Positions 3,876 through 62,751 of a stretch of DNA of 64,000 nucleotides are shown piece by piece. The notes beneath the pieces are model-generated. The model was not told where the DNA came from. It searched no databases and saw nothing but the letters and a program-made list of their open reading frames with translations. The DNA lies in the IMG/VR virus record IMGVR_UViG_3300023184_000062, positions 36,747 to 100,746 of that record, one strand, 5' to 3'. How positions within the stretch are numbered: the first letter of the stretch is position 1; the number at the start of each line of letters is the position of its first letter. This DNA comes from a virus. Position numbers and translations under genes: made by a program.

Positions 3876-4517
3876 ATGTCTCGCTTTCAAAAACCTGCTC
3901 CCCTCAATCTTAACGCTGATGATGTGTGGGCGGCTGCTTGCATGGCACAACGCCTAAATCAGGGCTACATTAAGGTTAGTGAAGATGCTCCAATGGGGCA
4001 AACAAACCGTAATCTAGTAACGCAATATCTTGCCGACACTTCAAAGATCACCGACGAGGATCGTGAACAAGGTAAAGAGGTTCGCAAATTCTATCAAGCA
4101 TATACATTCAAAATCCTTAAAGGTATCAAGTTGTCTGATTTTGACAACACCGCAATGCTACTTGCTAATCGTGAAACTATTGATACAGGGTTTGATATTG
4201 CGGTAATTACTAGTTTGCCCTCAGGCTACGTGCGTGGCATGAAACGACAAACAGTGGACCAGCGTATCGCATTCGCTACAGGCGGATTGATCGGTAGTGT
4301 AGGTGACAAAGTGTCTCCTTCTATCGAGGTCGTCAAATCCGTATTCTCGCAAACTTGGAATACACATTACATTACTGGTATTACTAGTGATGACCAAGTG
4401 TTGTTCTTTGCGTACAAACAACAACTAGAAGTGGGCAAGCAGTTTGATATTTATGGAACTGTCAAAGCACACCGTGATAATTCAACTCAACTTAACCGTG
4501 TAAAGGTAATCATATGA
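3876..4517 (+). CDS. conserved hypothetical protein (213 aa)
   Basis: Soluble protein starting MSRFQKPAPLNLNADDVWAA. The N-terminal half is helical; the C-terminal half looks like a beta-rich domain (VLFFAYKQQLEVGKQFDIYG, TQLNRVKVI). I do not recognise the family. It is the third gene of the unit begun at 3425 and overlaps the entericidin-like gene by four bases (ATGA). The aaagga site supports the start. Confidence 0.8.
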   Translation: MSRFQKPAPLNLNADDVWAAACMAQRLNQGYIKVSEDAPMGQTNRNLVTQYLADTSKITDEDREQGKEVRKFYQAYTFKILKGIKLSDFDNTAMLLANRETIDTGFDIAVITSLPSGYVRGMKRQTVDQRIAFATGGLIGSVGDKVSPSIEVVKSVFSQTWNTHYITGITSDDQVLFFAYKQQLEVGKQFDIYGTVKAHRDNSTQLNRVKVII

Positions 4518-5898: not shown

Positions 5899-7233
5899 AT
5901 GTCAGCTAGTTGGATAATCAAATTAAACGAGAGCGATAGCCGCCTTTATAAGGAAGATGTAATTCGTCAGGCATTAGAGGCGAGTGTCCTGGGTAGCACA
6001 AACGCAATCAATTTTTTAAAATTCACTAAACTTTGTTATGATCCTTATGTTACATTTGGAGTTAGACAGGTTCCTGAATCAGATGGCCTTATACATCGCG
6101 GTAATAATTGGCAAGAATTTGAAGATTTGCTATTGAAACTTAGCAGACGAGAATTATCAGGCAATGATGCGATTGATGCTGTTAAGAAAATGGCTTGGAA
6201 TTTTGATAGTGATGAATGGAACGTTTTTGTTGCACCAGTATTACGCAGGGACTTACGTGCAGGCATCAGTGATAAAACAATTAATAAAATTTGTAAGGGT
6301 ACTGAATTTGAAATACCAATCTTTGGTTGTCAACTAGCAACCACTAGTGAAAATCGTCCTGAGATGAATGGAGTTAAACGTCTTGAACCTAAACTAGATG
6401 GTGTTCGTGTATTGATGGTGGTAAAACCAAATGGCATAGGTACGGCATCAGTATCAAGTTTGAGTCGTAACGGCAAAGAATTTGAAAACTTTTCACTGAT
6501 TGAAAAACAAATTTCTGATAACTTTAAGAACATTGTCAACACCAATAAACGCACATTGAAAGATGGATTCGTTTTAGACGGTGAAGTTATCAGTAGTTCA
6601 TTTCAGGAACTAATGAAACAGGCACGTAGAAAAAAAGATGTTAATTCTGATGATAGTGTGTTTAATATTTTTGATATTATCCCTATTAATGAATTCTATA
6701 ATAGTATATATGAAGAACCATTAAGTAAGCGATTAAAGATATTAGACAAGATGCGGCCAGTAGTTGATACAATGCCCAATGTTGATTTCTTAACTAGCAT
6801 TAAAGTTAACCTTGACACTGCCGCCGGCAAAGACCAATTAGAGCGTTATGCTAAGGATATGGTTGCAGAGGGGTTTGAAGGTATTATGATTAAAGACCTT
6901 GAAGCGTATTACGAATGCAAACGTACTACCTCTTGGATGAAATGGAAGCCTACACTTACTGTAGATTTGGAGGTCATTGATGTTCAAGAGGGTACTGGTA
7001 AAAATAAAGGACGACTTGGAGCACTTGTTTGCGCCGGCCACGATCAAGGGGTCGATATTTCAGTCAATGTTGGCAGTGGGTTTACTGATGCTGCTAGAAA
7101 TGATTATTGGGATAATTGTGATAGCGTCATTGGTCGTACTGCTGAAGTCCTATGTGATGCCGTAACACAAAACAAAGACGGAACTTATAGTTTGCGTTTC
7201 CCCAGATTTGTTCGTTTCCGTGATGACAAATGA
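5899..7233 (+). CDS. 30: ATP-dependent DNA ligase, T4 gp30-like
   Basis: Seals nicks in duplex DNA through a covalent enzyme-AMP intermediate. The nucleotidyltransferase motif I is K165-L-D-G-V-R170; further motifs are LDGEVISS (about 227), EGFEGIMIKD (about 325) and WMKWKPTLTVDLEV (about 345), followed by an OB-fold domain with GRLGALVC. The N-terminal 140 residues are a helical domain like that of T4 ligase. At 444 residues it is slightly shorter than T4 ligase (487). It has its own strong promoter and aggag site, and serves replication and repair. Confidence 0.95.
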   Translation: MSASWIIKLNESDSRLYKEDVIRQALEASVLGSTNAINFLKFTKLCYDPYVTFGVRQVPESDGLIHRGNNWQEFEDLLLKLSRRELSGNDAIDAVKKMAWNFDSDEWNVFVAPVLRRDLRAGISDKTINKICKGTEFEIPIFGCQLATTSENRPEMNGVKRLEPKLDGVRVLMVVKPNGIGTASVSSLSRNGKEFENFSLIEKQISDNFKNIVNTNKRTLKDGFVLDGEVISSSFQELMKQARRKKDVNSDDSVFNIFDIIPINEFYNSIYEEPLSKRLKILDKMRPVVDTMPNVDFLTSIKVNLDTAAGKDQLERYAKDMVAEGFEGIMIKDLEAYYECKRTTSWMKWKPTLTVDLEVIDVQEGTGKNKGRLGALVCAGHDQGVDISVNVGSGFTDAARNDYWDNCDSVIGRTAEVLCDAVTQNKDGTYSLRFPRFVRFRDDK

Positions 7234-17844: not shown

Positions 17845-18573
17845 GTGGCAACTTGTAAATTTGACTGGTCATCAATAAATCGCTACGAGTTAAACGATTA
17901 CATTTGGTCGATGCATCCTAAAGTAATTAACAAAGAAATGACTATTGCAAATTTCCATAGACTAGTAGGAAATCACATAAAGAAACATATCCCTATTAAA
18001 TTAAAAAAATGGAGAGATAGTGATGTTGAAAACAATTGCACTTGGGTCGGTGGTGCTTACTACAGTGATTTAGATAAACAAAAACAAAAATCAATTGAAT
18101 TAGTACTTGTTTATAAGAGTAGAGAAAATTCAATTAAGATAACTCCACTTAATTTTCAAAGGTCATGTCGTACTATTACTCATACAATAATGCATGAAAT
18201 AATTCATATGCGACAATATCGCCGTAGAAAATTTAAAGAGTTACCCGATTATAATAGCACCGCTAAAAAAACAGAGCAACGAGAAGAACAATCTTATCTT
18301 GGATGTAGTGATGAGATTGATGCGTATGGATTCAATATAGCCTGTGAATTGTTATGGAAATTCAATAATGACACGGATAAAGTAATTTCATACCTCAATG
18401 AGGACCAAAGAGGTAAACGCAGAAAACATAACAGTTGGAGATTGTATTTAAAAGCATTCAATCACGACCACGAGCATCCAATCATAAAACGGGTAAAACA
18501 AAAGGTTGTACGATACTTACCAAATGCAATGTATGGTAAACCCTATCGCAATAAAGATTGGATAAATCATTAA
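17845..18573 (+). CDS. HExxH metallopeptidase-like protein (242 aa)
   Basis: Contains THTIMHEIIHMRQYRRRKF (about 111-129) with the zinc motif HEIIH, and downstream DEIDAYGFNIACEL, whose Glu is a plausible third ligand as in gluzincin/SprT-like peptidases. No signal peptide, so it would act in the cytoplasm or inside the particle. The start is GTG at 17845 with a strong aggaggt. It follows the 16299 gene by 13 bases and shares its late promoter. Confidence 0.8.
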   Translation: MATCKFDWSSINRYELNDYIWSMHPKVINKEMTIANFHRLVGNHIKKHIPIKLKKWRDSDVENNCTWVGGAYYSDLDKQKQKSIELVLVYKSRENSIKITPLNFQRSCRTITHTIMHEIIHMRQYRRRKFKELPDYNSTAKKTEQREEQSYLGCSDEIDAYGFNIACELLWKFNNDTDKVISYLNEDQRGKRRKHNSWRLYLKAFNHDHEHPIIKRVKQKVVRYLPNAMYGKPYRNKDWINH

Positions 18574-21486: not shown

Positions 21487-21711
21487 ATGCTTAAAAATGA
21501 TACACTACAATGGGGCGGGGTTTTCTTTGTTATCGCAGGGCATTTGCTCAATGCGATGGGAAATATGGACCCTTACAATATAATTGCTTTTGCTTTTGGG
21601 ACGATTTTCTTCCTAATTTGGGCGTTGCGTGTCCGCAACAACCCCCAAATTCTGGTGAATATTGTCTCAATCGCCATTTGTGCTAGTGGCTTATTCAGGG
21701 CCGCGACTTGA
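21487..21711 (+). CDS. two-span small membrane protein (74 aa)
   Basis: Hydrophobic segments around WGGVFFVIAGHLLNAMG, IIAFAFGTIFFLIWALRV and ILVNIVSIAICASGLF give two or three membrane spans. No Shine-Dalgarno; the promoter predicts a start at about the ATG itself. The TGA stop lies in the -35 of the next promoter. Function unknown. Confidence 0.75.
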   Translation: MLKNDTLQWGGVFFVIAGHLLNAMGNMDPYNIIAFAFGTIFFLIWALRVRNNPQILVNIVSIAICASGLFRAAT

Positions 21712-21736
21712 CATTAAATGGTTTTGGGTATATAAT
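21708..21736 (+). promoter_or_regulatory. early promoter cassette
   Basis: TTGACA (21708-21713), 17-base spacer, TATAAT (21731-21736), then the leader CTTAGACAGTTAAG. The TGA is the stop of the gene at 21487. Confidence 0.85.
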
Positions 21737-21769
21737 ATAGACTTAGACAGTTAAGAACAGGACTAGAAA

Positions 21770-22042
21770 ATGCGTACAAAAACAGTGATTGAAGGCTTCA
21801 AAAATTCACAAAAATTCCGTGTGATTTTCAAGGGCGATGGCTCCGAGAACGACATTGGAATGTATATGACGGTCAAGCAAATGACCGAGCAATTTGCTAC
21901 AGTTAACGCCCGCGTATTGTGCTGGGATGCAGTACAACAGTTGGCAAACATGCGTTATTTTGCTAAGGTTGACGGAAAACCAGTGCCCTCCGGACTTGGA
22001 ACTACGATTCGGGGCAAGCAAATTCAAGTGGACCTAGTATAA
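21770..22042 (+). CDS. hypothetical early protein (90 aa)
   Basis: Soluble, basic N-terminus (MRTKTVIEGFKNSQKFRVIF), no known motif. Driven by the promoter at 21708. It shares one base with the next gene (TAATG). The ATG is preceded by a weak purine stretch. Confidence 0.7.
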   Translation: MRTKTVIEGFKNSQKFRVIFKGDGSENDIGMYMTVKQMTEQFATVNARVLCWDAVQQLANMRYFAKVDGKPVPSGLGTTIRGKQIQVDLV

Positions 22043-22639: not shown

Positions 22640-22668
22640 TTGACAATAAATGGTTTTGGGTATATAAT
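22640..22668 (+). promoter_or_regulatory. early promoter cassette
   Basis: TTGACA (22640-22645), 17-base spacer, TATAAT (22663-22668), leader CTTAATCAGTTAATTAC. Confidence 0.85.
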
Positions 22669-22702
22669 AGAGTCTTAATCAGTTAATTACAGGAGTTTGA
22701 AA

Positions 22703-23131
22703 ATGGGTACACGTTCACGAATTGGTGTTATGCATGGTGACAAACTGAAAAGCGTTTACTGTCATTGGGATGGTTATCTGTCAAACAACGGCAAGATCCT
22801 GCAAGCACACTATGATAGTGCTAAGGCAAATCATCTGGTATCGCTAGGCGACTTGTCTAGCTTGGGTACTACTATTGGCGAAAAGCATGACTTTGATACT
22901 CGCACCGATTGTTGCACTTTCTACGGCCGTGATCGTGAGGAAACTGGTGTTGACTTTACTGTGGATCAATCGTATGACGAGTTTTTGAGCAAGGATTATG
23001 ATTACGAGTACTACTACATTATGAACGATGGTGTATGGTATGTTGGTGTTGCGTATGAGGTTGACGGCATGGTGCCTGGACAACTGTATGTATTGGCTGA
23101 GCAATTGGCTAAGTTAACAGAGGAAGAATAA
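22703..23131 (+). CDS. conserved phage protein, MGTRSRIG type (142 aa)
   Basis: Begins MGTRSRIGVMHGDKLKSVYC, with HWDGYLSNNGKILQ, a signature I know from many tailed phages and some bacteria; function unknown. A Tyr/Asp-rich C-terminus follows. The ATG at 22703 has aggag; a TTG six bases before is not needed. Shares one base with the next gene. Confidence 0.88.
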   Translation: MGTRSRIGVMHGDKLKSVYCHWDGYLSNNGKILQAHYDSAKANHLVSLGDLSSLGTTIGEKHDFDTRTDCCTFYGRDREETGVDFTVDQSYDEFLSKDYDYEYYYIMNDGVWYVGVAYEVDGMVPGQLYVLAEQLAKLTEEE

Positions 23132-57281: not shown

Positions 57282-57310
57282 AGTATAGCAGATACTCCAT
57301 TTATTGTCAA
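57282..57310 (-). promoter_or_regulatory. early promoter cassette, leaderless type
   Basis: Minus strand TTGACA (57310-57305), 17-base spacer beginning ATAAATGG, TATACT (57287-57282). The TGA of TTGACA is the stop of the methyltransferase gene. Confidence 0.75.
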
Positions 57311-58311
57311 CTGAGTTTTTTATACACAACCGTAGTATCGGAACTTTTGGAATTCATTGTCACAGTTTGATTAATTTGCCTTTTGCTACTTATCACACTC
57401 AAAACATCAACTTTATCATATCCAAACTCATTATGGTATTTTAAAACATCAACGTTCATATCACGATTCTTGACTTTACCCACATTCCAACAACTGGTTC
57501 CGTTGTCTTTTAAATGTTCAATACTCAACTTGATTACTTCACGCAAGAATCCATCAGCCCAATCTTGATAAGTTGTTGTATTGGTTATTGATTGTGTTTG
57601 TTCATGTATATAAACTTCTAAATCAAAGTAAGGAGGGCTTGTCAATACTAAATCTACTTTAGGTAAATTGTATTGTTTCATATTACGAGCATCATCACAT
57701 ATCAATGTGACTTTGTTTTGTATGCCCAAGAAATTAGCCATACTCATTAGATTGTTATATGTAGTAGTGTTAGGTTCAAACGCAATATATTGTGCCCCAT
57801 AACTCACTGCACCTAACATACGTCCTCCCCAACCGGCACACGGATCAAGTACAATTTCAGGTTTATATTTCAGACAGGCCAGCTTCATCATCTGTGGACG
57901 ATACATTGTGTTCTTTGTCAACCCACAACAAAAGTAAATCCCACGTTTCAATTCACTAAGATAGGGTGTGCTATGGGATTTACGATTCCAACGTAATATC
58001 TTTTCTAAATTAGTGGGTGTCCATAGACTTTTAAAACTAATACCTGTATTATTTTCAATATCATAAAAGTTAGGGCAGTAGTGTTCGCTTAGTTTCATCC
58101 CTATGCGTGATGTAGAACTAATGTCATTGTCAGTGCTAGTCCATTTACAGAGATTATCCCAATCTTTATTTAATTCAGCAGGGGTATATTGCGGGTAATA
58201 ATTTGTTTGCGATAACTCTACTGCCAAACTAGGCACAATCGCATTAAAATCTACATCAGATAGATTTCGTGTTGAGAAACGTTTATTTAAAACATCAACT
58301 AGTTTTACCAT
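57307..58311 (-). CDS. DNA methyltransferase (334 aa)
   Basis: AdoMet motif I IVLDPCAGWGGRMLGAVSYG (about 155-175) and catalytic motif IV LVLTSPPYFDLEVY (about 225); N4-cytosine or N6-adenine type. It methylates DNA, perhaps to protect the genome. The ATG at 58311 (MVKLVDVLNK) overlaps the end of the upstream gene; a TTG seven codons before is possible. Partner of the nuclease-like gene at 58305. Confidence 0.88.
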   Translation of the reverse strand: MVKLVDVLNKRFSTRNLSDVDFNAIVPSLAVELSQTNYYPQYTPAELNKDWDNLCKWTSTDNDISSTSRIGMKLSEHYCPNFYDIENNTGISFKSLWTPTNLEKILRWNRKSHSTPYLSELKRGIYFCCGLTKNTMYRPQMMKLACLKYKPEIVLDPCAGWGGRMLGAVSYGAQYIAFEPNTTTYNNLMSMANFLGIQNKVTLICDDARNMKQYNLPKVDLVLTSPPYFDLEVYIHEQTQSITNTTTYQDWADGFLREVIKLSIEHLKDNGTSCWNVGKVKNRDMNVDVLKYHNEFGYDKVDVLSVISSKRQINQTVTMNSKSSDTTVVYKKLS

Positions 58312-58880
58312 TGATTTATACTTTTTACCCAAGGTTCATTAAGAAATGATTGCCAAGATTCTGGTCCTGTCATAAACATCCAATCGTCATTTCCGCCATT
58401 CTTACCTGCCTGCTGTCTACCAAAATACTTACGTTTTGCATCAGATTTAGATACTTCATTTACAAAATCAATTTTATTGAACCACACAACATAAGGATTA
58501 CAGTCAATATTAATACCGACTAGTATAGCACGTTCCCAGTCTTTGTTTACAGAGAAATGGTTGAATGAAAAAACATCAGTTAATGTTAAACTTTTATCTT
58601 TACCGTTTCTATGTGAAAGACCAAATTTGATTTCAGTAAGAAAATTTGTAATTACTCTATCATGTCCACTAGTAGAAGTTTTTGCTTTTTTGACTTCATG
58701 GCCCAAACCAATCATCAATGTTTCAACAAACAACTCTCCGTATTTGCCTTTTATTTTGTTGTTTATATTTACATATCCTTTAAAGGGAGTATTGATCCAA
58801 GGATCAATATCAGACTTTAAAAAATCTAAAAGTTTGTTGTTTTGTAATAGTGGTATACTTTGTGTTGAATCTAATTTCAT
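58305..58880 (-). CDS. putative restriction endonuclease, PD-(D/E)XK-like (191 aa)
   Basis: Contains KGKYGELFVETLMIGLGHEV then STSGHDRVITNFLTEIKFGL; D of GHDR, E and K of EIK are spaced like a PD-(D/E)XK site, and the first Glu lies in the preceding helix. Downstream is NPYVVWFNKIDF. The stop overlaps the methyltransferase start (TGGTAA with ATGG), so the two are translationally coupled, as in type II restriction-modification pairs. The recognition site cannot be read from sequence. Start covered by a palindrome. Confidence 0.65.
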   Translation of the reverse strand: MKLDSTQSIPLLQNNKLLDFLKSDIDPWINTPFKGYVNINNKIKGKYGELFVETLMIGLGHEVKKAKTSTSGHDRVITNFLTEIKFGLSHRNGKDKSLTLTDVFSFNHFSVNKDWERAILVGINIDCNPYVVWFNKIDFVNEVSKSDAKRKYFGRQQAGKNGGNDDWMFMTGPESWQSFLNEPWVKSINQW

Positions 58881-62412: not shown

Positions 62413-62751
62413 TTACTTAATCCCGAATGTGTTCAATGCGGGACGCAATGTGTTAATCAATTCTGTTTCACGGGCATGAGCAGGGCGCTTGCCGCGAACA
62501 ACTTCAATAACACCGAATATAAAACGCTCGGCACCACGTTCACGCAATGCACAAGACAGACCCCAATCTTTACGCTCAGTCATGGCCCGTTGCATATGCT
62601 TTTGCATACGACGGCGTAGTGTGCGAAACACATTACCTTTGTATGACAGCGCAGTAAGACCAATATAGTATTCTTGTGTAACTACATCTTGTATGTAGTA
62701 TATCACTTGATTACGGTCTGTTCTACGCTTACGGGCGATTTTTGAGTTCAT
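62413..62751 (-). CDS. GIY-YIG nuclease-domain protein (112 aa)
   Basis: VIYYIQDVVTQEYYIGLTAL is the GIY-YIG core (Y-Y-I ... Y-Y-I-G); then FRTLRRRMQKHMQRAMT and a Glu near TELINTLRPALNTFG. A minimal nuclease domain. The ATG at 62751 lies six bases after TATAAT, so the mRNA should be leaderless. Confidence 0.85.
   Translation of the reverse strand: MNSKIARKRRTDRNQVIYYIQDVVTQEYYIGLTALSYKGNVFRTLRRRMQKHMQRAMTERKDWGLSCALRERGAERFIFGVIEVVRGKRPAHARETELINTLRPALNTFGIK

Follow-up and report, generated by a model that had tools for sequence, protein, structure and literature searches.

A putative phage restriction-modification module in which unrelated nucleases are exchanged beside one DNA methyltransferase

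Bacteriophage T4 degrades host DNA with EndoII and EndoIV, and hmC gives self-protection. The locus described here is similar in that a nuclease combined with self-modification lets a phage cut unmodified DNA, but it would protect the phage by a methylase or by the loss of sites, and its specificity is probably for 4 bp. As in the type IIP restriction-modification (R-M) system TaqI/M.TaqI (TCGA), separate, adjacent and coupled genes encode a PD-(D/E)XK-type nuclease and a DNA methyltransferase, and the target is probably a 4-bp palindrome. Unlike TaqI/M.TaqI, however, the module is carried by phages, its nuclease belongs to no Pfam family, three unrelated nucleases are swapped beside one methylase, and no control protein was recognised. 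The R-M systems of chlorovirus PBCV-1 target GATC and CATG (PMC7248222), and they resemble the present module in their logic, in that a virus encodes a nuclease and a cognate methylase acting on short words. Chloroviruses, however, have eukaryotic algae as hosts, and in the present phages solitary enzymes go with complete purging of the target. Finally, T4-like cyanophages carry annotated type II restriction endonucleases (SSM2_066, RE_MjaI, in S-SM2 and SBM3_00004, T4-GC 685, in S-BM3), with which site purging is shared; unlike in the window, no adjacent methylase was seen at either locus, and the parts of the literature searched gave no inferred target for them. In that literature, covered partially and mostly at the level of titles and abstracts, our families are nowhere described as R-M pairs, and neither nuclease exchange beside one phage methylase nor target purging by phage-borne enzymes was found.

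Complete R-M pairs are usually deemed exceptional in phages, and the first-pass annotation of this DNA had likewise called a full pair uncommon. For the present phages that opinion did not hold up, as about 100 contigs with such pairs were found (partly redundant), and the module is widespread and modular in T4-like phages and in large phages from aquatic samples. We analysed a stretch of 64,000 nucleotides (the window) that is part of a 100,746-b IMG/VR virus contig (IMGVR_UViG_3300023184_000062). Ten large window proteins were scanned, of which two hit informative phage families (one a DNA ligase, the other a host-takeover family of kinase type) and a third hits an unnamed phage family; several relatives of the window, found via the ligase, sit in contigs of 200-364 kb. 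We are fairly confident that the locus is a phage type II R-M module, probably TCGA-specific, in which the nuclease would cut unmodified host or competitor DNA and the methyltransferase, M1, would protect the phage.

The upstream gene encodes the family-A protein R-A, which is homologous to T4-GC 685 of T4-like cyanophages and belongs to PHROG_6927 (unknown function; 4.5e-43). R-A matches the PADLOC type II restriction endonuclease profile PDLC03515 (REase_II) at E 6.5e-8, and its S-ShM2 homologue does so at 1.4e-22. Pfam searches with R-A and with the nucleases of two further families, R-B and R-C, returned no family (a SNaCT12 match to R-C fell under the cut-off), and PDB sequence searches with the same three gave no meaningful match. 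E49, D74, E83 and K85 are all invariant in 16 R-A relatives. An AF2 model built from 16 sequences (pLDDT 87.2, pTM 0.84) places E49 in helix 41-58 and E83 and K85 on a long strand, 80-91. Five Foldseek matches of the model to the PDB reached E<=0.001, all of them NhoI chains, and Eco15I, EcoRV, I-Ssp6803I, the 3ndh restriction enzyme and PvuII ranked lower; the NhoI match is at the level of fold only, with 10-12% identity (10-15% in the BisI/NhoI comparison). The earlier suggestion of a PD-(D/E)XK-like gene, which was to fall if no nuclease fold matched, is borne out by the invariant KG..GE (E49), GHD74 and E83-x-K85 and by the match of the model to a restriction-endonuclease fold. R-A is thus predicted to have a gene of its own and the fold and active site of a restriction-type nuclease.

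M1, annotated at first as a TSPPYF methyltransferase, scores above the Pfam cut-off for N6_N4_Mtase (2.4e-7) and matches the PHROG_498 DNA methyltransferase (2.4e-15). Motif I (DPCAGWGGR) lies ahead of motif IV (TSPPYF), the alpha/gamma-type order, with an extra N-terminal domain, and the sequence is compatible with either N4-cytosine or N6-adenine as the product. The two genes lie at the coordinates first given and overlap, as first reported; the overlap is 7 nt long (ATGGTAA), and the stop TAA and the start ATG do not, strictly, share bases. An in-frame TTG at 58332 is a less likely M1 start, because the ATG at 58311 is kept among close relatives. Translational coupling through the overlap is likely. 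The pairing is not due to chance, because in dozens of contigs with differing flanks the methyltransferase gene follows a member of this nuclease family across an identical or similar junction and because dN is well below dS for both genes in most close pairs tested. Thus, motifs I and IV, the Pfam and PHROG matches and the coupling identify a DNA methyltransferase gene adjacent to the nuclease, and with the restriction fold and the REase_II match the type II-like character of the pair is sustained.

Table 1. Positions of the nuclease-methyltransferase pair, its motifs, the TCGA sites and a repeated element in the window
Feature	Position	Strand	Remark	Basis
Family-A PD-(D/E)XK nuclease gene (R-A)	58305-58880	-	191 aa, ATG start	ORF call
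M1 DNA methyltransferase gene	57307-58311	-	334 aa, ATG at 58311	ORF call
7-nt overlap ATGGTAA	58305-58311	-	methyltransferase start within nuclease end	sequence
E49, K-G-x-x-G-E helix (alpha-A of the predicted PD-(D/E)XK core)	58734-58736	-	invariant in sets A1 and A2	
Catalytic-type motif D74 ... T-E83-I-K85	58626-58661	-	D74, E83 and K85 invariant	
M1 SAM-binding motif I (VLDPCAGWGGRMLG)	57811-57852	-	core invariant in 20 M1 relatives	
M1 catalytic motif IV TSPPYF	57625-57642	-	invariant in set A5	
TCGA site	4324-4327	.	one of only three	
TCGA site	7052-7055	.	one of only three	
TCGA site	17908-17911	.	one of only three	
Promoter-like repeat copies	55887-55828, 55543-55486, 56629-56572, 62786-62757, 21708-21772, 22640-22706, others			

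How the pair is distributed was followed with M1, which found 61 viral loci in IMG/VR. Some 58 of 60 M1 genes are preceded by a nuclease of family A, B or C, and at nearly all loci an open reading frame of 185-216 aa overlaps or abuts the M1 start. The sole M1 lineage with no recognised upstream nuclease (L051:4757-7011) is preceded by a frame resembling a diverged second M1-like methylase. The three families are mutually unrelated, and hhalign detected no resemblance between A and B or between A and C. Family B is PHROG_3210 (unknown function), and its AF2 model (pLDDT 89.4) matches PvuII (9e-6) and DpnI by Foldseek; family C, a putative nuclease, has conserved E, D and KSG residues. The module is thus encoded by families that databases list under unknown function. 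A second methyltransferase family, M2, with beta order and a DLPYGT motif, also pairs with families A and C and stands behind A in 39 loci (P-SSM7, PSSM7_055, and AG-345-E15 are examples) and behind C in 14. The 7-nt overlap recurs in 9 of 17 loci with A and M1 and in 36 of 39 with A and M2. A combination of R-B with M2 was considered and dropped, as the two loci concerned (L210, L215) carry a third, distant methyltransferase instead. Bacterial genome scans gave no match with R-A and only two weak MAG loci with M1, and the R-A/M1 pair therefore looks phage-borne; the origin of M1 is not clearly bacterial.

The nuclease family changes beside M1. On the M1 tree its label switches at least 10 times, and M1 proteins that are 99.7% identical (L026 and L030) stand beside family C and family B, respectively, just as the M1 proteins of the window and L010 are 94% identical yet stand beside A and B. 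The DNA of L024 and L031 is 96.8% identical up to the nuclease start codon and 99.0% identical from the nuclease-methyltransferase junction through M1, and the nuclease genes between these flanks are non-homologous. Likewise, the window and L010 are collinear over 61460-58912 and 58315-55842, with the nuclease gene alone replaced. As read from these alignments, the nuclease frame is exchanged at exact borders in collinear phages.

What the nucleases recognise is suggested by the words that phage genomes lack, with expected counts taken from a maximal-order Markov model. In the window, TCGA occurs 3 times against 64.9 expected (O/E 0.05), the lowest ratio of all 256 4-mers (the next-lowest is 0.45), and in the whole contig it occurs 7 times against 113.7. 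In S-SSM4 and ACG-2014d, a solitary A and B gene, respectively, stands behind a related helicase gene, no methylase adjoins it, and TCGA is absent altogether, with 0 against 327.3 expected in 180,000 bp of S-SSM4 and 0 against 310.5 in the whole 179,110 bp of ACG-2014d. In 12 cyanophages without A or B, two of them recorded on Synechococcus WH7803, O/E was 0.56-0.90; all 6 cyanophages with A or B carry additional DNA methylases elsewhere in the genome. When T4-like loci were picked by their helicase, irrespective of nuclease, zero TCGA was found at 6 of 6 R-B loci versus 1 of 73 loci without a nuclease gene (pooled O/E 0.74), the one being a contig that ends inside the helicase. The Fisher value of 2.5e-8 for this comparison overstates independence, as the loci are partly redundant and represent about five distinct B-carrying phage types; IMG/VR contigs in the site counts are fragments. 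Complete loss of TCGA with a solitary A-core or B gene suggests that the word is the nuclease target. R-A probably recognises TCGA, and family C probably cuts it also.

How phages with a methylase treat the word differs. Beside M1, TCGA is scarce but not zero, with cluster pools of 0.10 for A and 0.23 for B and a pooled O/E of about 0.1-0.35 in M1 phages; the A and B cluster representatives together hold 79 TCGA against 485 expected, whereas phages with a solitary nuclease of the TCGA type hold none. Where M2 stands beside A, TCGA is mostly tolerated (P-SSM7 O/E 0.82, cluster pool 0.43). Because M1 phages still shun TCGA strongly, we infer protection by M1 only indirectly.

The alternative that survives best, though we hold it improbable, is avoidance imposed by the host, in which hosts restrict TCGA, the phage purges the word and carries a lone anti-restriction methylase, and the nuclease-like gene is incidental. 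The shunning of TCGA by M1 phages despite their own methylase would fit, as would the intermediate avoidance in window kin without R-A, R-B or M1 (G001-G004), whose O/E around the ligase gene is 0.35-0.39. Effects of lineage or host therefore play some part. Purging, however, follows the nuclease family and not the host. S-PM2, Syn33 and S-BM3, all from Synechococcus WH7803 per their records, have TCGA at 0.65-0.77, whereas ACG-2014d, whose isolate name Syn7803C102 implies the same host, has none. The contrast among helicase-picked loci also speaks against the host, as does the purging of a different word by a divergent branch of family A.

That branch (S-ShM2, L316 and L383, and partly S-BM3) keeps TCGA and avoids TTAA. 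In S-ShM2, TTAA occurs 0 times against 146.3 expected, with controls at about 0.77-1.0, and the branch probably targets TTAA. These four had been candidate exceptions to TCGA purging, a listing dropped once TTAA was seen to be avoided instead. S-SM2 served as a positive control: SSM2_066 (L263:2148-2675) is an RE_MjaI-family enzyme (PF09568, 1.2e-46), MjaI cuts CTAG, and CTAG occurs 0 times against 252.9 expected in 160 kb. Among the exceptions, ACG-2014f (L005) has a solitary family-A gene with intact motif, yet its TCGA O/E is 0.81. Its lowest words relative to controls are CATG (0.33) and GCGC (0.29). Two clades with B and M1 (L049, L053) and several contigs with C and M2 do not avoid TCGA either. 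Site purging, if valid, is a sequence-only read-out of specificity for uncharacterised phage nucleases, and here the data give probable 4-bp targets, TCGA and, for one branch, TTAA.

The same word loss bears on what kind of nuclease R-A is. NhoI is methyl-dependent, and BisI/NhoI endonucleases require a methylated target (GCNGC). With NhoI among the best fold matches of A, and DpnI among those of B, the nuclease might be modification-dependent and attack host DNA or the DNA of other phages where it is methylated. We give this little credence, as a coupled methylase would turn the phage's own DNA into a target, PvuII, EcoRV and 3ndh match too, and phages with a solitary nuclease purge an unmodified 4-mer. 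Slightly less credible again is a free-standing PD-(D/E)XK homing endonuclease like I-Ssp6803I that invades the locus, the precise gene replacement being a result of homing. I-Ssp6803I is among the fold matches of R-A, replacement of the frame is indeed precise, and T4-like phages harbour homing enzymes (PMC3037559, PMC2988022). Homing, however, sits poorly with tight coupling to two methylase families in unrelated contexts and with the near absence of M1 loci that have no nuclease. Homing sites are long, and an enzyme that recognises one would not oblige a 180-kb genome to shed all its TCGA or TTAA words. The solitary A and B genes of cyanophages were considered as homing enzymes and rejected after the purging test; genome-wide 4-bp purging and methylase coupling argue, indirectly, against the long site and self-mobility of such enzymes. 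The least probable reading, that the nuclease is a specificity-free subunit guided by M1 (type I/ISP-like), would explain three unrelated families beside one M1 sequence, but A and B also occur with no adjacent M1 or M2, and in those cases they go with the total disappearance of a single 4-mer. They therefore carry their own specificity, and the word concerned is another one in the divergent A branch.

We thus return to a type II R-M module. The upstream gene would encode an autonomous PD-(D/E)XK endonuclease, most likely TCGA-specific, and the coupled gene a DNA methyltransferase acting on the sites in the phage genome itself, with M1 and M2 both shielding TCGA. The nuclease would destroy unmodified DNA in the infected cell, whether competing phages and plasmids, the host chromosome or both, and cutting of the chromosome would serve nucleotide recycling and shut-off. 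The methyltransferase would be the conserved part and the nuclease slot would be refilled with unrelated A, B or C genes by homologous replacement, which is possible if isoschizomers are blocked by the same methylation. A phage with a nuclease but no methyltransferase would survive by ridding its genome of the target word. We lean, with less assurance than for the module itself, towards a mix-and-match viral R-M in which one methylase shield is shared, three TCGA nuclease families are traded and phages without the shield erase the word. Site methylation and site erasure would then be two alternative strategies of self-protection, and the use of restriction enzymes by phages, in dismantling host chromosomes or excluding rivals, becomes directly testable.

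Other words are also low. CCGG has an O/E of 0.00 in nearly all T4-like cyanophages examined (L270-L281, L288-L299), with ACG-2014f and S-SM2 as exceptions, and AGCC/GGCT and AGCT are likewise low in the same set; an enzyme that cuts CCGG, encoded by either phage or host, may be shared by these phages. In the loci L264, L282, L268 and L286 of two cyanophages, S-SSM4 has neither TTTAAA nor AGTACT and S-ShM2 has no AGTACT (0 against about 10-12 expected each), TTTAAA in S-ShM2 being covered by TTAA. Both hexamers are possible further nuclease targets. In the window, a small protein (62413-62751, minus strand) has a GIY-YIG-like start (QVIYYIQD...YYIGLT) and is possibly another phage endonuclease. 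Between small window genes, and in relatives as well, there are many copies of a promoter-like element some 30-70 bp long, and a TTGACA-17-TATACT match lies at 57310-57282, directly after the methylase gene.
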